Positions 7,965-25,336 of a DNA stretch of 27,099 nucleotides are shown here, one piece after another. The position numbers were made by a program, and so were the translations under genes. Position 1 is the stretch's first letter. The number at the start of each line of letters is the position of its first letter. The stretch is from a virus. Location of the stretch: IMG/VR virus record IMGVR_UViG_3300035698_009787, positions 1 to 27,099 of that record. One strand, 5' to 3'. The notes under the pieces are model-generated. The model made no database searches, was not told the origin of the DNA, and saw only the letters and a program-made list of their open reading frames with translations.

Positions 7965-7997
7965 GGGTTTCTCCTTTTGGTAGGGTGTTTTGTTTTC

Positions 7998-8024: not shown

Positions 8025-8033
8025 AGGATGGTA

Positions 8034-8648: not shown

Positions 8649-8680
8649 AAGCAATCCTTTCATCATTAACTTGTATATAT

Positions 8681-8709: not shown

Positions 8710-8736
8710 GGCGAATATTGGATTAATATTATACAT

Positions 8737-9358: not shown

Positions 9359-9359
9359 C

Positions 9360-10750: not shown

Positions 10751-11099
10751 CAGCTTCCTCATCATCAAGAATTTCCATTTTTGGTCGCTTACCTCTTATT
10801 TGTTGCTGTCGCTTCAGTACCTTTTCTTTAACTACTACAACAGCAGCAGCGGTGTAGACTATTACATCAAGCAGCTCATTAATAACATCAACATCATTGG
10901 TTGCTTTCATAGCCTGCTTTATCTTTTTGTCAACCTGACCAAGAGGAAAGCCTATGCCAATCTCTCGAGTTCGCTTGCATATCTGCTGACGCTCGAAAGG
11001 CTCGTCAGTTGCATGAATAGTTCCTTTACCTTCAGAGGCTCGCTCAACTGCACTATTCAAGACATTCTTGAGGGAGCGGTAGTTGTTTCGTTTGCTCAT
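10743..11099 (-). CDS. Hypothetical protein with an ELLDVIVY helix
   Basis: A 118-residue helical protein: an N-terminal basic part (MSKRNNYRSLKNVLNSAVER), a central IGFPLGQVDKKIKQAMKA, then INELLDVIVYTAAAVVVVKE. The E-L-x-D-V helix recalls all-alpha nucleotide pyrophosphohydrolases (MazG/dUTPase-like), and the operon already has dCMP deaminase, but the other acidic ligand helix is not clear, so this is only a hint. Good GAGGAG site 7 nt before the ATG. Confidence 0.6.
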   Translation of the reverse strand: MSKRNNYRSLKNVLNSAVERASEGKGTIHATDEPFERQQICKRTREIGIGFPLGQVDKKIKQAMKATNDVDVINELLDVIVYTAAAVVVVKEKVLKRQQQIRGKRPKMEILDDEEADA

Positions 11100-11119
11100 C
11101 AGCTTTCTCCTCTTGTTTA

Positions 11120-11148
11120 AATATGATTAATTACTAAGTATGAATCAA
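11120..11148 (-). promoter_or_regulatory. Possible promoter after the GTNNN array
   Basis: On the minus strand TTGATT - 17 bp - CATATT, located between the periodic repeat region and the gene starting at 11099. Each hexamer matches four of six consensus bases. Confidence 0.3.
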
Positions 11149-11311
11149 GACTGTACTTTACTACACATCACCTCACCATCACATTACGGAACACTGCTGA
11201 GCTACACCGTTACTTCACTACATTGTACAGTGCATCACCGTTACGTTACACCAAGTTACGTTACACCACCATTACAGTACGTCACGGCACTTTACCATCA
11301 CATAGCAGCTA
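11135..11311 (-). repeat. Intergenic array of degenerate GTNNN / GTGATG / GTAACG units
   Basis: This stretch of ~180 nt without a gene is built on the minus strand from units starting with GT every 5-6 nt (GTAAA GTGCC GTGAC GTACT GTAATG and so on). It contains a tandem 15-bp repeat (GTTACGTTACACCA plus one base, 11240-11254 and 11255-11269 on the plus strand). Stop codons occur throughout in the sense direction. It separates the gene at 11312-11911 from the gene at 10743-11099. Confidence 0.65.
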
Positions 11312-11911
11312 TCACACTTCTGCAAACTCAACCACCTTGAACCTTCCGTAGCCACCATTCCGAAATTGCCCTAAGCCAGAGAGGTTGCCATAATCAAGAA
11401 GTGCTCTTATTTTATCCACCGTTATCTCATTCTTTCCAGTGTCAATAAGCGTGATAGTAAACTCAAGTGTTGTACCTTCGTCTACTTTATCACTTCTTGC
11501 AAGTGATGTTCTTGGTCCTTTCATTGTCATAGCAGTCAGCGGGCGTTCAACTACTCCAGTTGGCTCCTTTATTAGTATACCGTCTTTATACAGATACACC
11601 TTTCTTGGGTTTATAAAAACTACATCATCAATTTTAGACCTTAAGGCTTTCACCTTAAATCCAGGTGCATCTTTCTTGACATTGCCCCAATGCTTGAGGA
11701 AGCCTTTAACCATATAATCAAAGATGAACAGACCTTTTTCATCGCTACGAATGCCTGTCCAACCTCTTTCCTCAACAGCTTCTATATCTATCTCATCCTT
11801 TCCTCCGTCAGGTCTTTTCGTGTCTATGTATGTCTCATAGACTTCCTTATTCTTTGGTGCTGTACCAAGCATTTCGGTAACCAGTTGCAATTTTACTTTG
11901 ACTTCTTGCAT
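11312..11911 (-). CDS. RAMP-like glycine-loop phage protein
   Basis: A 199-residue protein. The N-terminus has KLQLVTEMLGTAPKNKEVYE, the middle YMVKGFLKHWGNV and FINPRKVYLY, and the end DYGNLSGLGQFRNGGYGRF. The pattern matches a protein I know as a frequent hypothetical in phages of anaerobic bacteria (GTAP...ey...DY.iKGF.k......rPl.....G...G.GqwRn.g.GrF). The final glycine-rich loop GxGxxRNGGYGRF resembles the G-loop of RAMP-fold RNA-binding proteins such as Cas6 and Cmr subunits. That link is an inference from a short motif. GGAGGAG lies 7 nt before the ATG. It overlaps a 34-codon gene upstream by 19 nt. Confidence 0.7.
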   Translation of the reverse strand: MQEVKVKLQLVTEMLGTAPKNKEVYETYIDTKRPDGGKDEIDIEAVEERGWTGIRSDEKGLFIFDYMVKGFLKHWGNVKKDAPGFKVKALRSKIDDVVFINPRKVYLYKDGILIKEPTGVVERPLTAMTMKGPRTSLARSDKVDEGTTLEFTITLIDTGKNEITVDKIRALLDYGNLSGLGQFRNGGYGRFKVVEFAEV

Positions 11912-11997
11912 GTTAATTCTCCTCCTTCATCAAACACCTTCCAGTACTGCTTCTCTTTTTTTGTGGTAGCTTTTCTACCAAGCTTTAAAACACACAT
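11893..11997 (-). CDS. Very small basic protein (34 aa)
   Basis: Reads MCVLKLGRKATTKKEKQYWK followed by VFDEGGELTCKKSK. Support comes from TAGGAGGAAAAGACTG before the ATG, a TGATG junction with the upstream gene, and the fact that it fills an otherwise empty 85-nt gap. Two cysteines and ten basic residues; no family recognised. Its 3' end overlaps the start of the RAMP-like gene by 19 nt. Confidence 0.5.
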   Translation of the reverse strand: MCVLKLGRKATTKKEKQYWKVFDEGGELTCKKSK

Positions 11998-12203
11998 CAG
12001 TCTTTTCCTCCTATTACTTTCCTCCCACAAGTAGGACATTTTACTGGTTTATCCAAGGCAAGGCAGAGTTGGCCTATAGCCATAGATAGACGATTTAATA
12101 TCGTATAAACATCTTCAAGTGCTGGGCTAAAAGCCCTTCTATGAAGAAGGTCACTAGCCTTGTTATTCTGTACTCTTGCATTTGCTATATTTTCCCTGTT
12201 CAT
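11997..12203 (-). CDS. Hypothetical protein ending in a CPTCG zinc knuckle
   Basis: A 68-residue helical protein (AFSPALEDVYTILNRLSMAI) with a C-terminal VKCPTCGRKVIGGKD, half of a zinc ribbon. A second CxxC pair is missing, so it might bind metal as a dimer or not at all. GGAGAAAGGCTG before the ATG; TGATG junctions on both sides. Confidence 0.6.
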   Translation of the reverse strand: MNRENIANARVQNNKASDLLHRRAFSPALEDVYTILNRLSMAIGQLCLALDKPVKCPTCGRKVIGGKD

Positions 12204-12412
12204 CAGCCTTTCTCCTTAATCTTCTTTACTATGAGAGTGTTAGTTTCGGCTAGGAAATCCCAATTTTGGTCTGTATGGTCACCTTTCTCTTGGTGCTCCC
12301 TAACCTGGATTAAGAGCTCTTTCAGTTTTGCCTTGCTTAGTGCATCTACTCCGTCTAAGAATAAGAGTAAGCCACCAAACGCTTGAACTCTGGTTACTTT
12401 ACGTCCTAACAT
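12203..12412 (-). CDS. Hypothetical protein
   Basis: A 69-residue helical protein, MLGRKVTRVQAFGGLLLFLD..., with a hydrophobic stretch too short for a clear membrane span (FGGLLLFL) and a Lys-rich C-terminus. GAGGAGG lies 7 nt before the ATG. No family recognised. Confidence 0.55.
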   Translation of the reverse strand: MLGRKVTRVQAFGGLLLFLDGVDALSKAKLKELLIQVREHQEKGDHTDQNWDFLAETNTLIVKKIKEKG

Positions 12413-12424
12413 AGTTAGTCCTCC

Positions 12425-12736
12425 TCATAGACCTATGTTGTGTAGTTCATCACGAGCTTGCATTAGTAATGTGCAAGCCCTAGTAATACCCACAAGAAAC
12501 TCTGATGGTGTATCGTTTTCAACTTCGTTGACTGTAGAGTCTAAACCAAACCTTGAGAGTATCATAGACAGTGCAGTAACTATAGCACTTGGCTTGGTGT
12601 GTTTTATTACAGCAAACATTATGTTTGTTCGCTTCTTTACCTCGTCACCACAGTTTCCAAAATACTCTGCTGACTCGTTAGAGAAAGGAGTCTTGTCAGG
12701 AGTAATTCCAGGTTTTAGATTGCTACCGTAAGACAT
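12425..12736 (-). CDS. Hypothetical protein
   Basis: A 103-residue soluble protein beginning MSYGSNLKPGITPDKTPFSN. The centre is helical (VTALSMILSRFGLD, FLVGITRACTLLMQARDEL). The ATG with AGGGGAAG upstream was chosen over a reading 17 codons longer that lies inside the preceding gene. It overlaps that gene by 14 nt. No family recognised. Confidence 0.6.
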   Translation of the reverse strand: MSYGSNLKPGITPDKTPFSNESAEYFGNCGDEVKKRTNIMFAVIKHTKPSAIVTALSMILSRFGLDSTVNEVENDTPSEFLVGITRACTLLMQARDELHNIGL

Positions 12737-13094
12737 TATATCTTCCCCTTGTTTTAATAGTTGCAATTTTGGCTTGCATAGCAGCACAAGCCTCGTTGAA
12801 TTCTTTTACAGGAGCTACGTCAGTCTTGTTCATGGTGATGCTAATGTGCCTTACAGCTCTCCACTCAGTACAACAACCATTCTCCGTTATGTCTTCCCTA
12901 GTTGCTAATGGACAGCAGAGACATTTATTGTAATCTATAGAACTAAAATAATAGCATAATGAACAGGGCTGCTGCCCTTTAGCATACCACCAGTTCCTAG
13001 CCCCTTTTATGGTAACTGCACGAAAGCTCCACTTACTTATAGCATCAGTCTTTACCTTTAACGGTACTGTCTTCCGCCGTTTTGGCTTTCTCAC
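12723..13094 (-). CDS. Cys-rich CCTEWRA-motif protein (short paralogue)
   Basis: A 123-residue protein with a basic N-terminus (MRKPKRRKTVPLKVK) and a Cys-rich core: PCSLCYYF, then KCLCCPL, then GCCTEWRAVRHI, seven cysteines in ~35 residues. The same arrangement occurs in the gene at 13682-14575, so the two share a domain that is probably zinc-binding. The start is taken as the GTG at 13094, 6 nt after GGAGG; a GTG six codons earlier would cover that site. It overlaps the upstream gene by 50 nt. Function unknown. Confidence 0.65.
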   Translation of the reverse strand: MRKPKRRKTVPLKVKTDAISKWSFRAVTIKGARNWWYAKGQQPCSLCYYFSSIDYNKCLCCPLATREDITENGCCTEWRAVRHISITMNKTDVAPVKEFNEACAAMQAKIATIKTRGRYNVLR

Positions 13095-13422
13095 TTTCAG
13101 CCTCCCTTTCACGTAAAATACTGTTTAACTTTTCCATCGCTCTGTTTGCTTGAGCTAAATGCTCACGCAGTTCAAATGCATCCTCCGAAGCATCCTTGAA
13201 AAGGTTTACTGTGTTAATAAGTGTACCTATTAGCTCGTCGCCATGGTCGAGAAGATTGAGCGCTCGCCTTGCCTCGTTTCTTGGTATCATCTTCTTGGCT
13301 TCAAAGGCATTGATGACGGTGGTTACACTTGGATAGTTCTCTATTGCCCGGTCTGTTCGACCTAGCGGGCAGGAGAGAGTAGTCCGGTCGTATTTCTGGT
13401 TAAGTTCAAGGGTTTTTGGCAT
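13045..13422 (-). CDS. Hypothetical coiled-coil protein
   Basis: A 125-residue protein. The first third is basic and polar; from ~70 on it is helical with heptad-like spacing (ASEDAFELREHLAQANRAME, then KLNSILREREAESEKAKT). A phrase LSCPLGRTDRAI near the N-terminus has a single cysteine. The ATG at 13422 follows GGAAGG and overlaps the upstream gene by 17 nt. No family recognised. Confidence 0.6.
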   Translation of the reverse strand: MPKTLELNQKYDRTTLSCPLGRTDRAIENYPSVTTVINAFEAKKMIPRNEARRALNLLDHGDELIGTLINTVNLFKDASEDAFELREHLAQANRAMEKLNSILREREAESEKAKTAEDSTVKGKD

Positions 13423-13660
13423 GGTTAGCGCCTTCCACGTTTGCAAGGTTTTCAGCATTTACCCAAAAGTTAAGCTCACGGCGGTTATCGAGAGTGTAAA
13501 CTATTTTATAGTTCATTCTTGCATCTGAGTCAATTCTAATAATGGTAACTATTTCCGCTTCAAATCGCATATCAGAGTATTCGCCTTTCAGTACTTGATA
13601 AGGTACTCTACCATCCCATAGCACCTTATCACCTACTTTGAATAGCTTAATTACTGGCAT
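13406..13660 (-). CDS. Small SH3/KOW-like barrel protein
   Basis: An 84-residue protein of alternating strands: FKVGDKVLWDGRVPYQVL, then AEIVTIIRID, then YKIVYTLDNRRELNFWVNAE. The opening F.vGDkV.w.g..y.v and the L.nW..e end are typical of small SH3/Tudor-like barrels that bind nucleic acid or proteins. Two ATGs are adjacent; the second is 6 nt from GGAGG and is preferred. Role not known. Confidence 0.6.
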   Translation of the reverse strand: MPVIKLFKVGDKVLWDGRVPYQVLKGEYSDMRFEAEIVTIIRIDSDARMNYKIVYTLDNRRELNFWVNAENLANVEGANHAKNP

Positions 13661-13681
13661 CATTGACCTCCATTAAGAGTA

Positions 13682-14575
13682 TTACTTATTCTCCCGCACG
13701 TAGATTACCAGAGGAGTTGGGCTGTTTTGCTCATCGTTATGACTCACCTTGAATACCTTACAGAAGCGCTCTTGGGTAGAATAATCCAAGTCGTTGTAAT
13801 GGATCCGTATTATGCTGCAGCCTCTAAGTTCCTTTTTTCTGGCTTGAACCTCTTCCAGCGCATTTGCTGTGTTCATAGCCTTAACCTGCGCATCAAACTC
13901 TGCTCTTGTAAAGGCTGCATATCTTCTTGCTCTGAACTCTTCTGCTCCTGCAAAGGCTGCATCTCTTCTTACTCTGAACTCTTCCCTCTCTTCTCTCTCT
14001 TCCAGCGTTACTATCTCAGCAATTCTGCGGTGTAGCAAGCGACAAAACATATTGAATCTATCAAGCCATAACTTTTCGCTTTCTGTACCTCTTTGCGTGA
14101 GGTAACTGTCAGTAATCGCTTTCAATGCTCTCCACTCAGTACAACATACTCCGTTAGGGCCTTGTAATGGGCAGATACAATTTGGTTGTGTGTTACCATA
14201 GTAATGACAGAATGAACAGTTTCTCTGACCTCCACCATACCTAAACCATTCATACGCATCTGCAGCTGTCTCAAACTGCACATCCCACTTCTTTTCTGCT
14301 TCATGTTTCACGCTTTGTGTTAACTCTTTCATGGTTTGTTTCTCCTCTTGTTTTGGTTGTTCATCAAGTATAACGAACTTTATCCCACTTGTAGTTACCA
14401 GCGCATGTATAGCTGGTTTACTGCTGAAGTCAATACCAAAAAAGCTGAGCTCTGCATTATCTTGTGCTTTCTTAAAGTGTTGATGAAGTAGTTCTTCTGT
14501 TGCTGTTATCCTCTCATTTTTAGCTGGTGTTCTGTACTTCGGATTATTGTAGTCAGGTGTATTTGGTATTGGCAT
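13682..14575 (-). CDS. Cys-rich CCTEWRA-motif protein with repeat-rich tail
   Basis: A 297-residue multi-part protein. Residues ~1-80 are an N-terminal segment with a beta-strand core (KPAIHALVTTSGIKFVILDE). At ~110-160 lies the Cys core CSFCHYY, CICPL, CCTEWRALKAI, matching the protein at 12723-13094. At ~185-235 there is a charged repeat (EEFRVRRDAAFAGA / EEFRARRYAAFTRA). The C-terminal ~50 residues are beta-rich. An internal ATG at 14332 (residue 82) has GAGGAG ahead of it, so a second, shorter product starting MKELTQSVKHEAEK is possible. Probably zinc-binding; function unknown. Confidence 0.6.
   Translation of the reverse strand: MPIPNTPDYNNPKYRTPAKNERITATEELLHQHFKKAQDNAELSFFGIDFSSKPAIHALVTTSGIKFVILDEQPKQEEKQTMKELTQSVKHEAEKKWDVQFETAADAYEWFRYGGGQRNCSFCHYYGNTQPNCICPLQGPNGVCCTEWRALKAITDSYLTQRGTESEKLWLDRFNMFCRLLHRRIAEIVTLEEREEREEFRVRRDAAFAGAEEFRARRYAAFTRAEFDAQVKAMNTANALEEVQARKKELRGCSIIRIHYNDLDYSTQERFCKVFKVSHNDEQNSPTPLVIYVRENK
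13902..13985 (-). repeat. Tandem 42-bp repeat inside a coding region
   Basis: Two adjacent copies (13902-13943 and 13944-13985) differ at a few positions and encode 14-residue units of the form EEFRxRRxAAFxxA in the protein at 13682-14575. A recent internal duplication is likely. Confidence 0.7.
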
Positions 14576-14589
14576 TAGTTCCTCTCTTG

Positions 14590-14808
14590 TTACTTAGTGA
14601 ATGTTTTTAGCGTCATCCGCACTGCCTTAGCTACCTCACCTCGCCAATGACTCATATTGTTGAGAACATATAGACACTGAACTCTCAACTCTTCTCCGGT
14701 CATGGTTATGCCTGCCTGTGCATAGTTGATGGCATAGTTCAGACTCTTCGCATGACGGTTGTCTACAATGGTTCGTAGAGCCTCACGGACGGTACTTTCA
14801 CTGGTCAT
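14590..14808 (-). CDS. Small hypothetical protein
   Basis: A 72-residue helical protein beginning MTSESTVREALRTIVDNRHA. The ATG with AAAGGAGAGTGTG before it was chosen; a longer reading would cross the small membrane gene that overlaps its start by 11 nt. No family recognised. Confidence 0.6.
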   Translation of the reverse strand: MTSESTVREALRTIVDNRHAKSLNYAINYAQAGITMTGEELRVQCLYVLNNMSHWRGEVAKAVRMTLKTFTK

Positions 14809-14908
14809 CACACTCTCCTTTATTATACTTCCGTTCACACTTACGAATGGTATCGAGGGCAGTCCATCCACCCCACACGAGACATAATAGTATTAAGATG
14901 TTTAGCAT
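14798..14908 (-). CDS. Very small membrane protein (36 aa)
   Basis: MLNILILLCLVWGGWTALDT is one short hydrophobic span followed by a charged tail with two cysteines (KCERKYNKGECDD). AAAAGGAAAGGCTAAC precedes the ATG and the 3' end overlaps the next gene by 11 nt. One of several tiny membrane peptides in this operon; function unknown. Confidence 0.6.
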   Translation of the reverse strand: MLNILILLCLVWGGWTALDTIRKCERKYNKGECDDQ

Positions 14909-14950
14909 GTTAGCCTTTCCTTTTATAATCCTACAGTTTGCATTACCTCA

Positions 14951-15175
14951 TCAGTTGGGGTCTTTCATCACTTCATCAAAGGCATTTAAGAAGGCTTTAA
15001 CACCATGTTTCCGAATCATACCTGAGACTTCAATGAAGAGTTCGCAACCTTCTTCTGCAAGTTTGTTTGCATCAAGAGTTCTTATTTCACTATCATCACC
15101 GGTTGAAATTTTTGCTTCTTTACATCCTTCTATTATACCTTTTGCAAGTTCTACATACTCATTTTTCTCTTTCAT
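14951..15175 (-). CDS. Small hypothetical protein, first after a strong promoter
   Basis: A 74-residue, acidic, helical protein (MKEKNEYVELAKGIIEGCKE...). It is the first of the main run of leftward genes behind the promoter at 15234-15262, with GAGGAAATAAACT before the ATG. First-position genes in phage early operons are often host-takeover factors; that is inference only. Confidence 0.65.
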   Translation of the reverse strand: MKEKNEYVELAKGIIEGCKEAKISTGDDSEIRTLDANKLAEEGCELFIEVSGMIRKHGVKAFLNAFDEVMKDPN

Positions 15176-15233
15176 AGTTTATTTCCTCACTGTTAAGAGT
15201 GTTAATGTTATCCTTTCTTAATACCACATATAC

Positions 15234-15262
15234 AATATAATACATTAAATATGTAATGTCAA
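15234..15262 (-). promoter_or_regulatory. Strong leftward promoter
   Basis: On the minus strand TTGACA - 17 bp - TATATT: a perfect -35 and a five-of-six -10 at ideal spacing, 59 nt upstream of the ATG at 15175. The spacer contains an inverted repeat TACAT-N5-ATGTA that could be an operator. It is the likely start of the long early operon. Confidence 0.75.
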
Positions 15263-15300
15263 GACAGTTCTCTCACACCATCGAAAAAGCACATTGTTGC

Positions 15301-15327
15301 ATCTGTGTTAAATTATTTATCGCAGAC
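15301..15327. promoter_or_regulatory. 27-bp palindrome, copy B (degenerate)
   Basis: ATCTGTGT-N11-TCGCAGAC, with the arms partly decayed relative to the other copies but the same spacing and the same right inner end (TTATTTA). It lies just upstream of the strong leftward promoter and just after the stop of the 37-aa gene. In the transcript it also forms CTGTGT/ACACAG. Confidence 0.5.
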
Positions 15328-15333
15328 ACAGGT

Positions 15334-15447
15334 TTACTTCTTCTTGGCCGCTGGTCTGTTTCCGATATAATAGCCAATCATAAGTACTATAAGTATACCT
15401 ACAACGACCGTTATGATAGTTCCTGCTACCATCCAATCATGTGGCAT
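15334..15447 (-). CDS. Very small membrane protein (37 aa)
   Basis: MPHDWMVAGTIITVVVGILI continues as a single transmembrane span and ends with a basic tail (NRPAAKKK), which predicts the C-terminus inside. GGGAG lies 5 nt before the ATG; an in-frame ATG four codons upstream lacks a site. A third small single-span peptide in this operon, after those at 14798 and 3536. Confidence 0.65.
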   Translation of the reverse strand: MPHDWMVAGTIITVVVGILIVLMIGYYIGNRPAAKKK

Positions 15448-15474
15448 AGTGTCTCCCATCTTAGTGTGAATTAA

Positions 15475-15491
15475 CATGAACTATGTTCATG
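15475..15491. repeat. 17-bp perfect palindrome
   Basis: CATGAAC-TAT-GTTCATG lies between the stop of the 29-aa gene and the start of the 37-aa gene. It could be a regulator site or a short transcript hairpin; no T-run follows. Confidence 0.5.
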
Positions 15492-15497
15492 CTTGCA

Positions 15498-15587
15498 TTA
15501 CTCAATAAGAGCATTCTGAGCATCATAGATACAGTTGCAATCATCCTCATTCATATGGAACTCTGATACTACTCTAATCTTAGGCAT
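15498..15587 (-). CDS. Very small acidic protein (29 aa)
   Basis: MPKIRVVSEFHMNEDDCNCI followed by YDAQNALIE. It has a strong AGGAGGAG site before the ATG. Palindrome copy C sits 30 bp upstream, between this gene and the AT-rich control core, so it may be under that operator. A CNC pair is present. Small size limits confidence. Confidence 0.5.
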   Translation of the reverse strand: MPKIRVVSEFHMNEDDCNCIYDAQNALIE

Positions 15588-15616
15588 GGCGCATCTCCTC
15601 CTATTGTAATGTAAGT

Positions 15617-15643
15617 GTCTGTGATAATTAATTTATCACAGGT
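15617..15643. promoter_or_regulatory. 27-bp palindrome, copy C
   Basis: GTCTGTGA-N11-TCACAGGT with a central TAATTAATTTA. Located just upstream of the 29-aa leftward gene and ~27 bp from the left arm of the 31-bp inverted repeat. Confidence 0.6.
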
Positions 15644-15669
15644 GAACCTCCGGCGAACGTCGGCGAGAG

Positions 15670-15700
15670 TCTATATACATAGGTCTATGTATCTATTACC
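15670..15700 (+). repeat. 31-bp inverted repeat, left arm
   Basis: Starts TCTATATACATAGG and ends ATCTATTACC. It contains the 18-bp palindrome ATACATAG-GT-CTATGTAT. It matches the reverse complement of 15891-15921 except at one base. Confidence 0.8.
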
Positions 15701-15890
15701 TCCGCCGTCAGGTAAAAATTGAAAATATTTGTTCTTAGTTCATAATATTAAATAATTATTATATATAAATAAACTAAGAACTAAACCTCCTTTTCTTTTT
15801 AACTAGTTAAATAAAAGTTTTACTAGTTAAAATTAATTAACTATACATTTCAATATCATAATATAAAATGTCAATTATCGAGGACTCATG

Positions 15891-15921
15891 GGTAATAGAT
15901 TCATAGACCTATGTATATAGA
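15891..15921 (-). repeat. 31-bp inverted repeat, right arm
   Basis: Reverse complement of the left arm at 15670-15700 with a single mismatch (A for T after CTATG). It also contains the self-complementary core CATAG-AC-CTATG. Confidence 0.8.
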
Positions 15922-15978
15922 TCTGTGCCATCACTCGCCGTCAACTTCCAGCAAAAGTTATCGAGTTCCTCGTAAGGT

Positions 15979-16143
15979 TTACCCCTTTCTATTTTTAATT
16001 CTATCAGTGCATATCTCTATAAGTATACGCAACTGTTCTTCTGTTAAAGATTCTGGAAATGCATTTTGAATACCTGTCAAAAGCATTTGTGTCCAATTAC
16101 CACCACAAGTAGTACAGTGGTCTAAAAATTCTTTTCTCTTAAT
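15979..16143 (-). CDS. Conserved small Cys protein with apparent ATT start
   Basis: A 54-codon open frame: initiator then KRKEFLDHCTTCGGNWTQM, followed by LLTGIQNAFPESLTEEQLRI. The motif FLDHCttCGGNW..MLLtGI is one I recognise from small phage proteins, normally beginning M-K-x-x-E-F-L. Here the position of that Met is an ATT codon (16141-16143). A TGA lies nine codons before it and no ATG, GTG or TTG lies between. Either ATT is used, as in infC genes, or the start has mutated. No good ribosome binding site is seen. The gene follows 16178-16600 by 34 nt. Confidence 0.5.
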   Translation of the reverse strand: MKRKEFLDHCTTCGGNWTQMLLTGIQNAFPESLTEEQLRILIEICTDRIKNRKG

Positions 16144-16177
16144 GGTGTAAGGTTGGGTTCCGAATCACTCGTAAGAT

Positions 16178-16600
16178 TTACTCCTGTTCGAGTTTCAATT
16201 TACCTTCTGCGTGCAGTCTATTAATTTCATTTAACTGCTCGTCTGTCAACCTAGAGATTAAATCTTCTGGTTTTGCGTCTTTCAGGTCTTCTTTCACAAC
16301 TCTCGTTGATGCCTGCCGACCGATAAGGTCTTTCACGTTGACTGTTATTCCTTTCTCACCCAACTCAAGACATTCTTTCAAGAAGACTGTATCTTTTTTT
16401 CTTAGTCTAATTGCAATCTTGCGAACGGCTTCTTGCTGTGCGAGTGTAATCAGTTCGTCTGTTGTAATATCACTATAATCATAATGAAGAATAACATAAC
16501 CCTCGGCTTGACCTGATTTCGTGTTGACAGTTATAACCTTACCTGTCGATTTTACTTGCACATCTTCAGGTTTCACGTCTACTGTTTTCTTATCACTCAT
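16178..16600 (-). CDS. Hypothetical protein, first gene behind a divergent promoter
   Basis: A 140-residue soluble protein beginning MSDKKTVDVKPEDVQVKSTG. A beta-rich first half (KVITVNTKSGQAEGYVILHY) is followed by helices (ELITLAQQEAVRKIAIRLRK) and a helical end (RLTDEQLNEINRLHAEGKLK). Some overlap in style with phage regulators, but there is no clear DNA-binding motif. It is the first gene after the promoter at 16721-16749, with a ~115-nt leader. Function unknown. Confidence 0.65.
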   Translation of the reverse strand: MSDKKTVDVKPEDVQVKSTGKVITVNTKSGQAEGYVILHYDYSDITTDELITLAQQEAVRKIAIRLRKKDTVFLKECLELGEKGITVNVKDLIGRQASTRVVKEDLKDAKPEDLISRLTDEQLNEINRLHAEGKLKLEQE

Positions 16601-17302: not shown

Positions 17303-17358
17303 GGACGCTGCAGACGCTCAGAGTGGCCACAGCGGCGAAAGATAATCCAAAAATAGTC

Positions 17359-17387
17359 TTGTGGCGAGTGCGTGTATGTATTATATT
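17359..17387 (+). promoter_or_regulatory. Late-operon promoter candidate
   Basis: TTGTGG - 17 bp - TATATT, with a good -10 and a weak -35, placed 28 bp before the ATG of the TerS-like gene. A weak -35 would fit a promoter that needs an activator. Confidence 0.5.
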
Positions 17388-17415
17388 GTATATATACAGG
17401 TTAAGGAGACTAGCA

Positions 17416-17958
17416 ATGAAAGGTGTTCCAGAGGACAGAAAGTACCAGATACAAGCGGTGCGCAACCGTCACCATGAGATTGTGCGCCTCGTTGTGTTGG
17501 GCTGGGACAATAAGAGAATCGCTAAGCAGCTCGGTATCGGCGCACAGAATGTTTCAGATGTAAAGAACAGTCCGCTTGGTGCCCGTAGCATTATGATACT
17601 CCAAGCGAGACGTGATGCCAATACAGTTTCTTTAGCGAAGATGCTGGAGAATGATGTTCCTAAAAACTTCGACCTCATTATGCAAGTTCGTGATGGGAGT
17701 ATAAAGTCAGACTCTGATCTATACATACCAATTCAACTCCGTATGTTAGCAGCAACCAAACTACTCGACAGAGAAGGTTACGGGCCTACTAAGAGCGTAA
17801 CCGGCAAGTTCGTACATGCTTTCCTCACCGGTGACGATATAGAAGATATTAAAAAGAGAGCTGATGTAGCCAGTGCTAATGCAAGTCAACAGGCTCGCAT
17901 TGATGGACTGGAAGTGGCAGAAGCTGAAGTTATTAAACAGGAGCGGGTGCCCGCTTAA
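17416..17958 (+). CDS. Putative terminase small subunit (HTH protein)
   Basis: A 180-residue protein. Residues ~15-50 form a helix-turn-helix (HHEIVRLVVLGWDNKRIAKQ, LGIGAQNVSDVKNS), followed by a long helical region and IQLRMLAATKLLDREGYGP at ~96-116. This arrangement (HTH, SplG.....l...RD....., helical hairpin, lkAa..iLdRaGyGp) is shared by TerS-like phage proteins that select DNA for packaging. As the first late gene it could also be a DNA-binding regulator. The ATG at 17416 follows AAGGAGACTAGCA; a GTG 31 codons earlier would overlap the promoter and was rejected. Confidence 0.65.
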   Translation: MKGVPEDRKYQIQAVRNRHHEIVRLVVLGWDNKRIAKQLGIGAQNVSDVKNSPLGARSIMILQARRDANTVSLAKMLENDVPKNFDLIMQVRDGSIKSDSDLYIPIQLRMLAATKLLDREGYGPTKSVTGKFVHAFLTGDDIEDIKKRADVASANASQQARIDGLEVAEAEVIKQERVPA

Positions 17959-17967
17959 GGAGGCAAG

Positions 17968-18420
17968 ATGAAGTTCTTGAAACGACAATGGCTTAGTTGT
18001 TTGATCCTAGCCGTAGTTAGTATTGGAATGTATGGAGCATTGCAAGCGGCCACTATAAACATTACCGGCAGCACTATGAATGGTCGGACGTGTTATGCTG
18101 ATAGCTTGACAGCAGTTGGCGACTTTGATACACTTGAGCTAGTAAGTTTCTCCGGTACGCTTGAAACTATACAAGAGGTTACATTTCAAATTACTGTTAC
18201 AAATATTAATACAAGTGTAGATGTTCGAGGTGAAGGCTCTCTTGATGGTGTTAACTGGTGGAATCTTGATGATACTGGTAGCGATACACAATACCTAACT
18301 GACGATACAAGCGCTATTAGATATTATGGTTTAGCTAGCGTAGTGTATATTCGACTGGTGTGGACAGCTGAAGCTGGCGGCACTGATGCTATTATAGCGG
18401 TAATAGTAAAGGCAGGTTAA
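17968..18420 (+). CDS. Exported beta-sheet protein with Sec signal peptide
   Basis: A 150-residue protein. Residues 1-27 are a classical signal peptide: basic MKFLKRQW, a hydrophobic core LSCLILAVVSIGMYG, and an ALQAA cleavage-like end. The mature part is Thr/Asp-rich beta structure (FQITVTNINTSVDVRGEGSL, DGVNWWNLDD). No Cys after the signal, so it is not a lipoprotein. TAAGGAGG precedes the ATG. It is the first of three consecutive signal-peptide proteins in the late operon. Likely periplasmic, surface or virion-associated; no family recognised. Confidence 0.65.
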   Translation: MKFLKRQWLSCLILAVVSIGMYGALQAATINITGSTMNGRTCYADSLTAVGDFDTLELVSFSGTLETIQEVTFQITVTNINTSVDVRGEGSLDGVNWWNLDDTGSDTQYLTDDTSAIRYYGLASVVYIRLVWTAEAGGTDAIIAVIVKAG

Positions 18421-18421: not shown

Positions 18422-19360
18422 ATGAAGAAAATTATATTTGCTATAACCGTTCTTCTTCTCGCTGCAGCTTTAGTCTACAGTGATGGTGAGGTAAAGCATC
18501 TTGGTGGCACAGTAACAGGCAACGACACTATTGACAGCACTAACGTAATCATTCATAGTCTTGCTAAGAGTGATATTGAAGTTTTTGCTACTGCTCTATG
18601 GGACAGTGCCGGTGCTATTACTGCACGAGATACTGTTCTTATCAACACTCTATTGAATTATGCGGGTGCAGACTCTATCCTAAGTAACCTCCTTATGAAC
18701 TATGTTGCTGCAGATTCTATTATTAGAAACTTTCTTACCTTAGCTGTTGCTATAGATACTACTCTTATGAACGATGTACGAATAGCAATGGAAGCTGATA
18801 CTAGTGCTGTTAACACTGCCGTCCTATATACTCTTGCTGATGCTCATCCAGACTTTGATCAGTTGGCTGTAGCTGGCGGTGATATAGGTAATTACATTAA
18901 GGTGAATGATGGGACTAATGTTTTAGAGTGGATAACGCCAGGCAACCTCCTAACCGACATTAGCGGTGCTGCTTCTGGTGCTAACAGTGACATTACTTCT
19001 TTGGCTTCAATTGACAGTGTAGTTACTGATGGCATCGTTGCAGGAAAGTGTAGAGTCTACCTTGATATTGATGCTGACCGGCAAATTAGTGCAGCTGAGA
19101 CTGGTTCACTCTTCCTTGCCCATAATATAGGTACAAAGAGGACTTACACATTACCAGCTGCTGCTATTGGTCTAGAATTCTACTTCTCCGTAGATGATGC
19201 TGATAGTCTTCTACTTGAGGGTGCTGGCGCTAATGGTATTAAAGACCGCACAAACGCTTATGCAACTTTCTCAGCAGTTAATGCAACTATACATCTTATT
19301 GCCTACAATGCTACGACTTGGCTAGTACAGTCACAAACAGGTACTTGGACGCCCTATTAA
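18422..19360 (+). CDS. Signal-peptide tail-fibre-like protein
   Basis: A 312-residue protein. Signal peptide MKKIIFAITVLLLAAALVYS, then DGEVKHLGG, a start shared with the next gene. The middle is helical with Asp/Ser repeats (INTLLNYAGADSIL, LLMNYVAADSII). SGAASGANSDITSLASIDSV is typical of phage tail fibres, and the C-terminus (TYTLPAAAIGLEFYFSVDDA ... TWLVQSQTGTW) resembles a beta-structured fibre tip. A fibre with an export signal is unusual, since virion parts normally assemble in the cytoplasm. Start ATG after AGGCAGGTTAAC. Confidence 0.65.
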   Translation: MKKIIFAITVLLLAAALVYSDGEVKHLGGTVTGNDTIDSTNVIIHSLAKSDIEVFATALWDSAGAITARDTVLINTLLNYAGADSILSNLLMNYVAADSIIRNFLTLAVAIDTTLMNDVRIAMEADTSAVNTAVLYTLADAHPDFDQLAVAGGDIGNYIKVNDGTNVLEWITPGNLLTDISGAASGANSDITSLASIDSVVTDGIVAGKCRVYLDIDADRQISAAETGSLFLAHNIGTKRTYTLPAAAIGLEFYFSVDDADSLLLEGAGANGIKDRTNAYATFSAVNATIHLIAYNATTWLVQSQTGTWTPY

Positions 19361-19380: not shown

Positions 19381-20925
19381 ATGATGACTAAACGTTCTAT
19401 ACCAGGCTGGTTATTCTTTACATTTACACTAGTACTAATCTGTATTGCTTACGTACAAGGTGACGGTGAAGTAAAGCACTTAAGTGGTGGTGATGTAGCT
19501 CTCAATAGTCTTGACTCTACCTACATCAAAGATGCAAGTACTTCTTTTAGCGACCTGAGTAGTGCTGGTGGTGCTTATACTATGGTACTCAAGTGGAATC
19601 CAACAACCAGCAAATGGTCAGCACAAGCTGATAGTACTGCTGGTGTTGGTGCTGGTCTTGACTCTACTAGCCTTGCTAATGACGGTGTAGGTAATGAAGA
19701 CCTGGTTGAAAATTCAGTCTCAACCCTCGAGATTCGTGATGCTACAATCGACTCTGAGGATGTGGCACCTACTGGTATTACGGCTTCTAACTTAGCTGCA
19801 GTCCTTCGTCATACTGGCTACATCACTACCGATAGTTTAAAAGTTGGTGACAATATATTTCTTGAAGATAGTATCCCTTTCCTCTTCGGCACTGGTCGAG
19901 ACCTTGAGAAGCATTATGATGGCACTTATGCTATGGAAATTCAGAGTCTCACTACAGATGCTTATTGGTGGTACCGTAACTCAAAAGCAGAGCATGTAGA
20001 CAACTCTGTCTGGCTGGCTCACCGGCTTGAAACTGACGGTGATAATACCCGTAGTGGCTTTGGTATTGAGACTAAGTTTAATGTAATAACCGATGCTACA
20101 CGTAACAGCACTGTCGTGTTCTATGGAACTGATGCTGGCACATGGGGCGCTGTGATGACCTTTGAAGGTCATAATGTTGGCTTCGGAACTAGTACACCTA
20201 AAGCCTCTAGTGTAACGTATGCTAAGGAAGTCTTATACTCTTTGGAGTATGTTCCTGCTGGAGAAGATTCTAGCTTAACTATCTCCATTGTTGATGGCGA
20301 GCCTGAGATTAATTTCTTTGCTAGTGATGGTGATACATGGAAGATTGTAAGTAACACCTCCGACCAGATGGTCATTTCTGGTGCTGATGATATTCTTCTT
20401 GGAACTGATGCTGTAATGCTAGCACCATCATTCAACGACTCATTAAAGAATCACCAGCCTACAATTTTATACCTCTACTGGACATCTGCTTTTGCTGATA
20501 GTATCTCCGCTAATGACTCACTTGATGTAATTATTACAGCTCAAAATCTTATTGGCAACCTTCAATCTGCTTTCATAATAAATGACCAGGGTGTAGAGGA
20601 GAAGGGTAGACTAATCATTGACGGTTATCTTCCTAACCCTCTTTCTACTCTTGATAGTCTTGGTATGCATATTTGGACTGAGACTACTGACGATAGTGAC
20701 TATATAAACGTCTACGTCCATGATGACTCTGTAGCAACAGACTTCAAGCATGTAGCTATTGACTCTGCTGTGACTCAGCATTCAGCAGTTGCTCGGACCA
20801 AGTGGTATATATCATTAGCTGTCGGCGGTATTGTTGGTGGAGAGTTCAGAGTGATAACAGACTTTACTAGCCTAAGTGACACTGTGTTTATTGGAAGACC
20901 TAGACTATTTATAACTAATCACTAG
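19381..20925 (+). CDS. Large signal-peptide tail-fibre-like protein
   Basis: A 514-residue protein. An N-terminal hydrophobic segment GWLFFTFTLVLICIAYVQG is a signal peptide or anchor, followed by DGEVKHLSGGDVALNSLDST, clearly related to the previous gene. Later phrases such as LKWNPTTSKWSAQADST, DIPFLFGTGRDLEKHYDG-like text (actually SIPFLFGTGRDLEKHYDG), NVGFGTSTPK and a C-terminal beta domain are characteristic of fibre or adhesin proteins. No catalytic motif. Likely host recognition or surface attachment. Paralogy of the two N-termini suggests a common export or docking segment. Confidence 0.65.
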   Translation: MMTKRSIPGWLFFTFTLVLICIAYVQGDGEVKHLSGGDVALNSLDSTYIKDASTSFSDLSSAGGAYTMVLKWNPTTSKWSAQADSTAGVGAGLDSTSLANDGVGNEDLVENSVSTLEIRDATIDSEDVAPTGITASNLAAVLRHTGYITTDSLKVGDNIFLEDSIPFLFGTGRDLEKHYDGTYAMEIQSLTTDAYWWYRNSKAEHVDNSVWLAHRLETDGDNTRSGFGIETKFNVITDATRNSTVVFYGTDAGTWGAVMTFEGHNVGFGTSTPKASSVTYAKEVLYSLEYVPAGEDSSLTISIVDGEPEINFFASDGDTWKIVSNTSDQMVISGADDILLGTDAVMLAPSFNDSLKNHQPTILYLYWTSAFADSISANDSLDVIITAQNLIGNLQSAFIINDQGVEEKGRLIIDGYLPNPLSTLDSLGMHIWTETTDDSDYINVYVHDDSVATDFKHVAIDSAVTQHSAVARTKWYISLAVGGIVGGEFRVITDFTSLSDTVFIGRPRLFITNH

Positions 20926-20936: not shown

Positions 20937-21191
20937 ATGGCTTTAACAATCGAACAGAAAAAAGAAATAGCTGCAAAGTTTCAGGGACATATAAGCAGTT
21001 TATTGGAAGCAACAAGTCTTTCTAAAGCAGATATAAAAGCATGGGTAAGTTATGCTGTTGGTGCTATTGAGAGCGGGCTTGTTACGATAAATAATAACTC
21101 TCCTGACCCGGCAAAGAGTAGCCTTACTTTGGAACAAAAACGGTGGATATTCAAGGCTATTATTGATGTAATATTTAAGGAGGTGAGTTGA
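20937..21191 (+). CDS. Small hypothetical late protein
   Basis: An 84-residue, soluble helical protein with two similar helices, LTIEQKKEIAAKFQGHI near the start and LTLEQKRWIFKAIIDVIF at the end, perhaps an internal duplication. AAGGATAAATT precedes the ATG. Possibly a chaperone or connector for the neighbouring fibre proteins; no family recognised. Confidence 0.6.
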   Translation: MALTIEQKKEIAAKFQGHISSLLEATSLSKADIKAWVSYAVGAIESGLVTINNNSPDPAKSSLTLEQKRWIFKAIIDVIFKEVS

Positions 21192-21192: not shown

Positions 21193-21687
21193 ATGGCAAG
21201 TGGAGATACTTTACTGGTTTTTACACCGCATAATGCAGAACCCCCAGCGGCTAATTTTGCAACGCATGATACTCGGAATAACCATCCAGTATTAGACTTC
21301 GATGCAACAACAAACGAAACTATTTATTTCTCGGCTGTTATGCCACGTTATTATGTAGGAACTACTGGTATAACAGTATATTTGCATTTTTCCATGAGTT
21401 CAGCAGAAGCGAATACTGTTGATTGGGATGTGGCTTTTGAGAGAATAGGTGACCAGCAACAGGATGTTGATACTGACAGCTTCGCAGCCGTGAATAGTGT
21501 TGATAATACAACCGTTCCGGGTACTACAGGACTCGTAGATATTGTCAATGTCGCTTTCACAGATGGCGCGGATATGGATAGCGTGGCAGTTGGCGAATTA
21601 TTCAGGATACTTGTAACCAGAGACGCAGTGAATGATGATGCTGCCGGTGATGCTGAACTTCATGCAGTGGAATTAAAGGAAACCTAA
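21193..21687 (+). CDS. Phage structural/decoration protein candidate
   Basis: A 164-residue beta-rich protein. The opening MASGDTLLVFTPHNAEPPAA followed by FATHDTRNNHPVLDFD, and the later AFERIGDQQQDVD and ELHAVELKET, match a protein I know from tailed phages in environmental samples, taken as a minor structural protein. Role on the virion is inferred from context beside fibre and lectin genes. GGAGGTGAGTTGAT before the ATG. Confidence 0.65.
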   Translation: MASGDTLLVFTPHNAEPPAANFATHDTRNNHPVLDFDATTNETIYFSAVMPRYYVGTTGITVYLHFSMSSAEANTVDWDVAFERIGDQQQDVDTDSFAAVNSVDNTTVPGTTGLVDIVNVAFTDGADMDSVAVGELFRILVTRDAVNDDAAGDAELHAVELKET

Positions 21688-21691: not shown

Positions 21692-22498
21692 ATGGCACGA
21701 AGTTTTGACGGAAACGATGACTTAGCAAGTGCGTCCACTATTGACTTATCAGGAACGCAACAGCTTACGTTGGCATGGTGGATGATATGGGATACCTTTG
21801 CGGATAATGATAAATTGGCTTTTGAGTTTAGCACAAATTATAACATTGTTGAAACTGGTTTTATTATTAACCCAAATGACTCTGTACGTAACGAGTTTAT
21901 GGCAGGGATAAAAGGTGATGATGGTTTTTCTGCCGGTTCATTTACAAGACCGTCGGCTGATGTTTGGCACCATTACGTTGTTTTGCTGGATAAAAGTGCC
22001 GCTGCATCCGAAGTTGTTGACATATATCTTGATGGCTCTGCGCAAGGTTTAAATCGCAGTGCTGATTCCAATAACACAAACAATTTTGGCAACCTTAATT
22101 TGTATTTTATGAGCCGAGCCGGTAGCAGCCTGCTTGCGGATGGTGAAATGGCAGAGGTGGGTTTGTGGGATAGGCTTGCAACTGTTGGAGAATGTGAAGG
22201 TTTAGCAAAAGGATATTCACCTGAATGTTATCCGAACGGTCTTGTAGAATATTGGAAACTTATGGGGAATAATTCACCCGAAATAGGTGAAAGAGGGGTT
22301 TCTGATTTAACAGTTGATGGCGCAACAAAGTTTGCACATCCGAGAATGATATATCCTGCCAGAACACAAATAGGAGTGCCGGCAGCGGGTGATGCACCAG
22401 CAGTTAGTAAAGAAGGTACTAAGAACAAACTTGTGAGTACTGCTGGTACTATGGGTCGTAAACATAGCCGCTTTGGCAGAACTTGGTGGGGATACTAA
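21692..22498 (+). CDS. LamG/ConA-like lectin-fold protein
   Basis: A 268-residue protein of the concanavalin A-like (LamG_3) group. SFDGNDDLASASTIDLSGTQ, then LTLAWWMIWDTF, WHHYVVLLDKSAAASEVVDI, YLDGSAQG and GEMAEVGLWDRLAT are the typical strands. The C-terminal ~60 residues are a Lys/Arg-rich tail ending GRTWWGY. No signal peptide. Likely glycan binding on the virion or fibre complex; the stop codon overlaps the sialidase ATG (TAATG), which ties the two genes in translation. Confidence 0.75.
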   Translation: MARSFDGNDDLASASTIDLSGTQQLTLAWWMIWDTFADNDKLAFEFSTNYNIVETGFIINPNDSVRNEFMAGIKGDDGFSAGSFTRPSADVWHHYVVLLDKSAAASEVVDIYLDGSAQGLNRSADSNNTNNFGNLNLYFMSRAGSSLLADGEMAEVGLWDRLATVGECEGLAKGYSPECYPNGLVEYWKLMGNNSPEIGERGVSDLTVDGATKFAHPRMIYPARTQIGVPAAGDAPAVSKEGTKNKLVSTAGTMGRKHSRFGRTWWGY

Positions 22499-23637
22499 TG
22501 AAATACTTGATAGCTTTATGTATAGTAGTATGCTTTACGTATGGGCAAGAAGCGCCAACAATTACCCAGAGTAATATTTTTGTTGCTGGTGATGGCAGCT
22601 ACCACACGTATCGTATTCCTTCGCTAATAACAACTCCTAATGATACTGTTCTTGCATTCTGTGAAGGTAGAGTTAATAGTATTGCTGATAATGGTGATAT
22701 AGATGTAGTTATGAGACGGAGTTCTGATAGTGGTGTTATTTGGAGTGCTCAAGAAGTTCTATATGGTGTAGGTGATGCTACAAACGTATTTGGAAGTCCT
22801 ACGGCTGTTATTGATACGTCTACTGGTTATACATGGCTTACGGTACGGTGGGTTGATATGGCTCATGGCTTACCTAGAATGCAAAGAATATATATGACAT
22901 ATAGTCAAGACGATGGAGTTACATGGGAAGACACAACTGATGTAACTAGTGATATCTCATTCTTTAGTGATTATCTTACAGGATGGGGCTTTTATGCTCC
23001 AGGCCCTGGTCTGAGTATTTGTTGTGATAGTGGTAGACTTCTTATTCCAGCATACTTTGAAAATCTTGCAGTTGATAAGTATTATGCTTACTGCTTCTAT
23101 TCTGATGATAATGGTTCTAATTGGGTAATGGGAGATAGCTGTGCTACAGCTGGCCTCTCTGAACACCAGATAGTGGAACTTACTAATGGTAATATAACGC
23201 TTACCGCACGTGATGAGAACTCAAGTCAAAGAAGGATAGTAGCAGTTAGTACTGATGAAGGTGAGACGTGGAATGCTGCTACAACTTCAACTATTATTGA
23301 CCCTACTGTTCAAGGTAGTATAATAACATTTGCTGACTCACTTCACGCTAATAGATTTGGTGTGCTATTCTCCAACCCTATGAGCGAGGATACTCGAGAG
23401 CGTATGACTGTTAGATTAAGTTGGGATGAAGGAGATACATGGCCAGTAGACAGAACTTTACATACAGGTCCTTCTGGGTATTCATGTATGACTATACTTC
23501 CAGACTCTACTATTGCTTGTTTGTATGAAAGTGGTACATCATCATTTAGAGAGAGAATAACATTCGCTAAATTTAACATTTCATGGCTTCAACAAATCGG
23601 GAGTCTAAGGAGCTTAAATGAGTTTAAACCTTGGTGA
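22498..23637 (+). CDS. Secreted exo-alpha-sialidase (GH33)
   Basis: A 379-residue protein with a signal peptide (MKYLIALCIVVCFTYGQ). The mature part is a complete GH33 six-blade propeller. YRIP (R39), the ADNGDID acid/base region (D64), SEHQIVEL (E222), TARD (R238), an arginine in ERMTVRLS (302 or 306) and GYS (Y328) followed by CLYE match the catalytic set. Five Asp boxes S-x-D-x-G-x-x-W are seen at 75-82, 136-143, 202-209, 251-258 and 308-315. By family it hydrolyses terminal sialic acids from glycans. Its coupling to the lectin gene and placement before the endolysin put it in the late operon. It resembles bacterial secreted sialidases more than phage endosialidase tailspikes. Confidence 0.9.
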   Translation: MKYLIALCIVVCFTYGQEAPTITQSNIFVAGDGSYHTYRIPSLITTPNDTVLAFCEGRVNSIADNGDIDVVMRRSSDSGVIWSAQEVLYGVGDATNVFGSPTAVIDTSTGYTWLTVRWVDMAHGLPRMQRIYMTYSQDDGVTWEDTTDVTSDISFFSDYLTGWGFYAPGPGLSICCDSGRLLIPAYFENLAVDKYYAYCFYSDDNGSNWVMGDSCATAGLSEHQIVELTNGNITLTARDENSSQRRIVAVSTDEGETWNAATTSTIIDPTVQGSIITFADSLHANRFGVLFSNPMSEDTRERMTVRLSWDEGDTWPVDRTLHTGPSGYSCMTILPDSTIACLYESGTSSFRERITFAKFNISWLQQIGSLRSLNEFKPW

Positions 23638-23643: not shown

Positions 23644-24075
23644 ATGTATTATTTAAGTGAGTACTCTGAAAATAAACTTTCTACTTGTGCAGAACCCTTA
23701 CAGCGTATTGCTCATGCTACGATTCAAGCAGTTGACTTTAAAGTAATATGTGGGCATAGGGGTGAGATTGCTCAGAATGAAGCATATAACACTGGTCATT
23801 CTGATAAGAAGTGGCCTGATGGTAAGCATAACGTCAGCCCTTCTCTTGCTATAGATATAGTTCCTTGGCATAGCAAATTTCCTAATATTCGTTGGGAGGA
23901 TACAGATTCTTTTATATATTTAGCCGGTCATATACTAATGTCTGCTCACTTACTAGGTATTAGTTTGAGATGGGGTAGAGACTGGAACATGAACGATAAC
24001 TTGAATGATGAGCATTTCTTCGATTGGGGACATTTTGAGTTAACTGGTAGCCCGTACGATTCAAAGAAAGGATAA
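23644..24075 (+). CDS. M15-family peptidase endolysin
   Basis: A 143-residue protein of the VanY/M15 peptidase family. GKHNVSPSLAIDIVPW carries H62 and D71, and DEHFFDWGHFEL carries the catalytic D/E and H130: the zinc-ligand set H-x-D ... H of D-Ala-D-Ala or L-Ala-D-Glu peptidases. The stretch CGHRGEIAQNEAYNTGHS is also typical. It cleaves peptidoglycan cross-links at the end of infection. No signal peptide, so it needs a holin; candidates lie downstream at 25395 and 25563. Confidence 0.85.
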   Translation: MYYLSEYSENKLSTCAEPLQRIAHATIQAVDFKVICGHRGEIAQNEAYNTGHSDKKWPDGKHNVSPSLAIDIVPWHSKFPNIRWEDTDSFIYLAGHILMSAHLLGISLRWGRDWNMNDNLNDEHFFDWGHFELTGSPYDSKKG

Positions 24076-24079: not shown

Positions 24080-25336
24080 ATGGCTGGTGTAACTAATAAA
24101 GAAATAAAAAGCATGGTTGAAGAGCGTTATAGTGCTCTGGAGAATGTGCTTGGTCGCTTTGTTGATTCAGTTGAGGACTTGAAGCATATTAAGATTCCAG
24201 TACCGGATGAGTTTCACGAAGCGGCTAAAGCTCTTATTACATGGACTGCTAAGGATAAGGATAAGAATAGTAGCGTAATATCCCTGAAGGACATTGATAA
24301 TGCTATTCTAAACAGAGTTAATGCTGTGACGGTATCTGTGCATGAAGTAAAGAAAGCTATTTCTACTCTTGTCCCTATGCGAGGAACAGACAAAGCAGTA
24401 ACATCGCTGGAGTCTGTAACTTCTGGCCTTGACGATATAGATAAAAACATTTCACATCTTGGTGTGCTCCTGTCCGAGACTCTAGAACGACTCCAGCGTA
24501 TTGAAAAGAAGCGTGTAGAACGGGGTGAGGCTATGCGCGGCACTGACAATGCCATCACTTCGCTGGAGTCTGTTCTGGAAAGACTTGATAAGTTGGAGAA
24601 GAGTAATGTTAGCGCTCTTACTAATGTGCAGAAGGTAATAGAGAGAGGCTTTAAAGCTATGCCTAAGATTTCTGACTTGCTAGGCATATCTGAACGTCTA
24701 GATAAGATTATGGAAACACCAGAACCTCCTATTATTGAGAAGTTGGATGCTAGTCAGCAAGCTATTAAGGTTAGTATTGGTGATGTGCTTCTCAATCAAA
24801 AGGCATTAGAGAAGCTGATAAAGAATATGCCTGTTAGTGTAGAGAGAGAAGTACCTGTTACTCAAATTGAGCAAGTTGATTATACTGAAAAGTTTAATGA
24901 GCTGAAGGTTGAAGTAAAAAGTATCGAATATCTTATAAGGAATGCTCCTGCACCAGTTGTTAAGATTAGCGATGTGTTTCCATCACCTGAGCAGATTGCT
25001 CATGTTGTATGGCAGAGAAAAGAAGAGATTGAGCAAGATATAGAGGATTTCAAAATTGATAACTTTCATCAAGGTGAAACTTTTAGGAAGGGTTACGAAA
25101 CGCTTACATCAGCAAAGTCTGTAAGCTTAGTCATGGAGCCTGATGATGGTAAGAGTGATAGCCAAGCTTTAGTTTCTATACCTTCAGATGTAGGTGGTGT
25201 TGTAGTCTTTGAGATTACCCCTGAGAGAACCTCTAAAATGAGACCTACCAGTTATAAGTGGGAATTATGGGATGGTAAAGTTATGGCTCATCAAGGTCGT
25301 TTTAACATTCTTGGTAGCTTTAAAGGAGAAAAATAA
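24080..25336 (+). CDS. Coiled-coil tail/baseplate protein candidate
   Basis: A 418-residue protein. Long helical and coiled-coil stretches fill residues ~1-320, with a duplicated module MRGTDKAVTSLESV / MRGTDNAITSLESV (around 100 and 150). The last ~75 residues are a beta domain (SLVMEPDDGKSDSQALVSIP ... YKWELWDGKVMAHQGRF) similar in character to the two small proteins at 25901 and 26296, which suggests related baseplate or upper-fibre folds. AAAGGATAAGTGC precedes the ATG. No enzyme motif. Confidence 0.6.
   Translation: MAGVTNKEIKSMVEERYSALENVLGRFVDSVEDLKHIKIPVPDEFHEAAKALITWTAKDKDKNSSVISLKDIDNAILNRVNAVTVSVHEVKKAISTLVPMRGTDKAVTSLESVTSGLDDIDKNISHLGVLLSETLERLQRIEKKRVERGEAMRGTDNAITSLESVLERLDKLEKSNVSALTNVQKVIERGFKAMPKISDLLGISERLDKIMETPEPPIIEKLDASQQAIKVSIGDVLLNQKALEKLIKNMPVSVEREVPVTQIEQVDYTEKFNELKVEVKSIEYLIRNAPAPVVKISDVFPSPEQIAHVVWQRKEEIEQDIEDFKIDNFHQGETFRKGYETLTSAKSVSLVMEPDDGKSDSQALVSIPSDVGGVVVFEITPERTSKMRPTSYKWELWDGKVMAHQGRFNILGSFKGEK

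Follow-up and report, generated by a model that had tools for sequence, protein, structure and literature searches.

Introduction

Phage enzymes that cut sugars are normally parts of the virion; the K1 endosialidases, for instance, are trimeric virion spikes that cut polysialic acid internally. Sialidases of family GH33 have also been described on viral contigs. They were listed among the viral glycoside hydrolases of cold seeps, host unidentified, where they were interpreted as AMGs for carbohydrate degradation (PMC8319345), and they were found in soil viral contigs (PMC10746233). As described in the relevant passages of these papers, such genes are virus-borne and bacterial-like, as is the gene reported here, a likeness of description and not of sequence comparison. 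Virus-borne GH33 as such is therefore not new, and what can be given here beyond those passages is the predicted signal peptide, the operon slot and the phage lineage.

We analyzed a GH33 gene in a stretch of 27,099 nucleotides (the window), which comprises positions 1 to 27,099 of the IMG/VR virus record IMGVR_UViG_3300035698_009787. A first-pass annotation, made from the letters alone, had read this gene as a complete, secreted exo-sialidase in a phage late operon, coupled to a ConA-like lectin gene and unlike the mostly endosialidase-type phage sialidases.

Predicted catalytic completeness of the sialidase

The sialidase ORF lies at 22498-23637 on the plus strand, starts with ATG and encodes 379 aa followed by a stop codon. 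The protein matched the Pfam families BNR_2 (104 bits, 1.1e-29) and BNR_3 (2.2e-17), and a phmmer search of the PDB produced 74 matches, the best being the Micromonospora sialidase 1EUR (2.3e-46, residues 20-366). Its AlphaFold model had a mean pLDDT of 88.7, and the nearest solved fold was again 1eur (TM about 0.83-0.88, E 8.7e-31), so that residues 20-366 take the six-bladed beta-propeller fold of sialidases, behind a predicted signal peptide at residues 1-16/17.

In an alignment of 50 sequences, R39 (YRIP), D64, E222 (SEHQIVEL), R238, R300 and Y328 (GYS) were invariant and E344 (LYE) was kept in at least 90%; the Arg triad, acid/base Asp, Tyr nucleophile and Glu partner are all present. D64 was off by one residue from D92 of 1EUR in the pairwise alignment (GID-APG) and aligned column for column with the Asp of Bacteroidota sialidases (NSSVD), such as BDI_2946. 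The sequence contains five Asp boxes (S-x-D-x-G-x-x-W), beginning at residues 75, 136, 202, 251 and 308, compared with a mean of 0.007 and a maximum of 1 in composition-preserving shuffles. The profile search, the structure model and the conserved residues thus bear out the motifs and the five Asp boxes read by the first-pass annotation, and the gene is predicted to encode a catalytically complete GH33 sialidase of the bacterial exo-sialidase type.

Position in the late operon of a tailed phage

The contig carries TerL, endolysin, ParB-methyltransferase, Sak4, exonuclease and ligase genes and is that of a tailed phage. A host contig was considered and rejected, since terminase, Sak4, ligase and endolysin are present. 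The divergent early/replication block (2..16600, minus strand) encodes the ParB-methyltransferase, exonuclease, Sak4, a PD-(D/E)XK nuclease, a dCMP deaminase and the ligase. At 2-1372, a ParB N-terminal domain is fused to an N6/N4 DNA methyltransferase, an arrangement kept in 15 related contigs. Among named phages, Desulfofustis phage LS06-2018-MD01 is the nearest, with identities of 50% for TerL, 38% for ParB-methyltransferase, 37% for the nuclease and 36% for Sak4. Judging from relatives, the whole genome probably measures about 45 kb, of which 27 kb are in the window. The gene is known from one contig, no second copy of the phage having been found. An integrase was looked for in 15 related records and not found, part of the window phage itself being missing, and the phage is probably lytic. 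Lysogenic conversion, one of the settings that the annotation had offered, is for that reason unsupported.

The late ORFs are co-directional on the plus strand and are separated by 0-20 bases between 17958 and 24080. They are preceded by a probable terminase small subunit (TerS) gene (17323..17958), whose counterparts in nine related contigs, at 29-38% identity, either immediately precede TerL or open the corresponding late block; the true start of the window gene is likely downstream, at about 17416. Three consecutive proteins with predicted signal peptides follow: a 150-aa protein (17968..18420), whose structure model was unusable (pLDDT 50), and two proteins judged fibre-like by eye, of 312 aa (18422..19360) and 514 aa (19381..20925). 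No homologue was found for any of the three, including among GenBank phages. The two fibre-like proteins carry DGEVKHLGG and DGEVKHLSGG, respectively, and so have in common the motif (S/G)DGEVKHL(G/S)GG just past the predicted cleavage region. A search of IMG/VR for DGEVKHL(G/S)G returned three chance matches in an unrelated protein, which were discarded. Next come an 84-aa protein with no significant family (20937..21191), a 164-aa protein with no match (21193..21687) and a LamG/ConA-like protein without a signal peptide (21692..22498; Laminin_G_3 5e-12, virion structural family phrog_8510 1.5e-5).

The sialidase gene therefore sits among phage genes in one operon, between the LamG gene and the endolysin gene (23644..24075; phrog_465 endolysin, 1.4e-26) and within the TerS-TerL interval. 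Downstream are a coiled-coil, weakly tail-like protein (24080..25336; phrog_788 tail 0.009, phrog_3590 0.003) and the terminase large subunit gene, which runs off the contig end (26879..27099; phrog_38 5.7e-8, 50% identity to the Desulfofustis phage TerL). The sialidase gene has a GC3 (0.23) resembling that of most late neighbors (0.21-0.34), which speaks, on this measure, against a very recent foreign insertion.

The sialidase ATG overlaps the TAA of the LamG ORF, forming TAATG at 22498, as the annotation had noted. A special functional pairing of the two genes is not supported. A LamG-like protein, just below the Pfam cut-off, lies beside TerL in the related contig L171 (16330-17286), which has no sialidase, and the LamG protein in the window matches the virion family phrog_8510; the overlap consequently shows only operon packing.

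Signal peptide and predicted export

Signal peptides were called throughout by hydropathy rules. By these rules, the sialidase begins with a predicted Sec signal peptide, MKYLIALCIVVCFTYGQ (22498..22548, plus strand), whose hydrophobic core reaches a mean KD of 3.46 from residue 4. The N-terminus was read as MKYLIALCIVVCFTYG cleaved before QEAP, with small residues at -3/-1 by eye. This agrees with the first-pass annotation, and the enzyme is probably exported via Sec.

The predicted signal is not confined to the sialidase, since the three late proteins at 17968-20925 also have one. A rule-based count over ten lineage contigs, window included, yielded 11 signal-peptide-like ORFs among 135 ORFs of at least 140 aa. 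Ten of the 11 fell in the terminase-area module, and the eleventh was the window TerS ORF with its over-extended start. In 6 of the 10 sampled contigs, a fibre- or tailspike-like protein of this module has a predicted signal peptide.

Likely bacterial origin of the enzyme

The best 80 genome matches to the sialidase were all bacterial and rich in Planctomycetota, Verrucomicrobiota and Acidobacteriota, with a Sumerlaeota contig at the top (41%, 5e-90); a single-sequence scan of genome contigs gave no match. The closest homologues are bacterial sialidases with export signals at 37-44% identity, 44% being the maximum to anything. Fold, catalytic residues, Asp boxes and a predicted export signal are common to the window protein and these exported enzymes, represented by 1EUR/1EUS of Micromonospora viridifaciens and by a Planctomycetota-rich clade (best JADFCW010000172.1, 44%), many of which also consist of a single catalytic domain. 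The window gene differs from them in its phage late operon, its AT-rich codon use and its long branch. A hydrophobic segment occurs at the corresponding place in 63 of the best 80 matches, so that inheritance is the simplest source of the predicted signal peptide of the phage gene. As part of our best explanation, given a little above even confidence, the gene would derive from the exported sialidases of environmental bacteria and would have been taken over together with its signal peptide.

In the tree proposed by the annotation, the protein did fall near exported bacterial enzymes, on a long branch and without a supported phylum; no placement is made because this branch shifts with the choice of taxa. 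The long branch could reflect altered specificity. Together with identities of at most 44% to anything, it would suit a protein that keeps the sialidase fold as a lectin or with another specificity and has no exo-sialidase activity, but all catalytic residues are retained and we consider this very improbable.

GH33 enzymes in other phages and viral contigs

A single-protein search of IMG/VR gave no direct relatives of the whole sialidase gene, and no sialidase was found in 19 related contigs. IMG/VR was further scanned with short conserved peptide patterns, for which reason the counts of phage GH33 are lower bounds. The matches were mainly fibre-fused domains, and a small number were stand-alone enzymes on actinophage-like contigs; GenBank phages produced one genuine match, of the fibre type (Acinetobacter phage MD-2021a, two records), and one mislabelled bacterial fragment. 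MT835944.1 (L002, "Bacteriophage sp.") was not accepted as a phage, since its remaining ORFs form, by eye, a Bacteroidota sialic-acid locus with transporter, N-acetylneuraminate lyase-like and SusC/D-like genes, and L012 was set aside as a Mu-like prophage edge with a host-type flank. Given the tail-fibre domains, the stand-alone genes and the published viral-contig GH33 as described in PMC8319345 and PMC10746233, the window gene is not the singular case that it had first seemed.

The tail-fibre domains (phrog_35653; L014-L017 and L028 of IMG/VR; MD-2021a) likewise have a sialidase-type propeller in the tail/lysis region, but they stand behind about 245-412 residues of fibre and have no signal peptide. 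Their scores to the window protein (20-63 bits) compare with about 250-310 bits for the bacterial enzymes, and a tail-fibre-derived origin was rejected on these scores. The stand-alone enzymes of four actinophage-like contigs (L011, L125, L126, L127) are about 350 aa long with tail genes upstream, and belong to unrelated GC-rich phages at 32-34% identity to the window sialidase. The enzyme of L127 has a predicted signal peptide, MPMRLRTVALAVAGLLAAAAVILAPAPAHA, and is followed by a GH25 lysozyme/endolysin; those of L011 and L126 lie in tail modules and have no signal peptide, and the L125 copy has an in-frame TGA. Export is thus not required of the stand-alone phage GH33 type, several of which have no signal peptide. 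A 602-aa stand-alone sialidase-like protein without a signal peptide was also observed in L013 (7111-8919), another phage contig, where a tailspike-like protein and terminase lie downstream of it.

The GH58 endosialidase tailspikes of K1 phages (e.g., K1E P49714) share the six-bladed propeller and act on sialic acid, but K1E matched the window sialidase in structure only (11% identity). Named phage matches to the model in BFVD were all below 20% identity, in line with the initial view that the enzyme is unlike these spikes. GH58 tailspikes are defined by a virion anchor and a trimerization/chaperone domain. Neither a virion anchor nor a C-terminal trimerization/chaperone domain was detected by sequence match or in the model of the mature sialidase, which consists of the catalytic propeller and about 12 further residues.

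The terminase-area module in related phages

Relatives of the window phage were reached via the PD-(D/E)XK nuclease, and their terminase areas varied in content. The order was TerS, Mtd-like receptor-binding protein, endolysin-like ORF and TerL in G005, and TerS, two fibre-like proteins (one with a weak CBM_4_9 match), endolysin-like ORF and TerL in G003. In G013, G015 and G019, TerS was followed by a family 2 glycosyltransferase, a tailspike-like protein of 730-812 aa with a predicted signal peptide, and TerL, whereas in G010 and G011 fibre-like proteins with predicted signal peptides adjoin lysis-like genes just upstream of TerS. The Mtd-like protein in the slot between TerS and TerL measures 690 aa (L166 6404-8476) and has an Mtd second domain of the major tropism determinant type; no reverse transcriptase was found in that record.

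The tailspike-like proteins with strong predicted signal peptides between TerS and TerL are those of L171 (11615-13807), L172 (4600-7038) and L173 (12617-15019), those of L172 and L173 being a beta-helix protein and a Phage_depo_C protein, respectively. Directly upstream of each is a family 2 glycosyltransferase gene (L171 10564-11610, L172 7040-8092, L173 11567-12616). Between L171 and L173, the signal peptides are identical at 8 of 21 positions and the adjoining 100 columns at 81 of 98, as expected if only hydrophobic character is selected in the former. Taken together, the interval that holds the sialidase appears from gene content to be a variable glycan-interaction and lysis module, in which relatives hold tailspikes, fibres and endolysins, several with predicted signal peptides.

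These tailspikes also bear on whether the sialidase could be carried on the particle, as tailspike sialidases are, and cut surface sugars at adsorption despite its signal-peptide-like N-terminus. The spikes of L171-L173 resemble virion spikes in that a conserved N-terminal domain precedes variable rear parts, phage sialidase domains often form part of a tail-fibre protein, and stand-alone GH33 without a signal peptide occurs in the tail modules of L011 and L126. The small mature sialidase offers no anchor or trimerization domain, however, and exported proteins would need to join virions after lysis. We regard a virion-mounted depolymerase as distinctly unlikely.

Proposed role

The reading that we favor, at slightly better than even odds, is a late, Sec-exported, free glycosidase that would uncover cells or remove receptors at release, with its activity predicted from sequence. 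The sialidase would be made late, alongside fibre, holin and lysis proteins, would pass via Sec into the periplasm and would be set free at or before lysis. Having no virion-anchor domain, it most likely works as a free glycosidase. It may then take terminal sialic or related nonulosonic acids off the host's own surface or matrix, and the uncovering of cells or the destruction of receptors would let progeny leave and spread.

The annotation had offered two roles, of which the clearing of cover before release is the better supported, and the feeding of the infected cell the less likely. In the latter, the exported enzyme would act as an AMG, freeing sialic acids from environmental glycans that the infected host imports and burns, to the gain of phage yield. 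The closest relatives are indeed exported bacterial sialidases, and the viral-contig GH33 described in PMC8319345 was taken as a carbohydrate-degradation AMG. Against this, no sialic-acid transporter, lyase or epimerase is among the recognized window genes, the late lysis/fibre block leaves little time to feed, and relatives fill the same interval with spikes and lysis genes. We judge it unlikely. Release or de-covering is favored over host feeding because the neighbors of the sialidase and the tailspike-like proteins of relatives also have predicted signal peptides. Overall, a complete exo-sialidase type with predicted secretion in a late operon stands from the annotation; the lysogen, the lectin pairing and the singularity are unsupported.

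Implications

Viral GH33 was known before, but exporting proteins of this surface-acting kind looks like a feature of this phage lineage. We tentatively propose, at somewhat less than even confidence, that this tailed-phage lineage uses the host Sec pathway to export proteins that act on surfaces, encoded in a variable terminase-area module; these would include tailspike-like depolymerases, fibre-like proteins and, in the window, the sialidase. If the lineage does so, depolymerization may proceed in trans by free enzymes, or virions may receive their spikes outside the cytoplasm. If the single-domain sialidase of this probably lytic phage is exported, its case and the signal peptides predicted on several neighboring and related spike-like proteins would imply that certain phages turn the dying cell into a secretion factory, stripping surfaces in trans by a logic comparable to receptor destruction by influenza neuraminidase.
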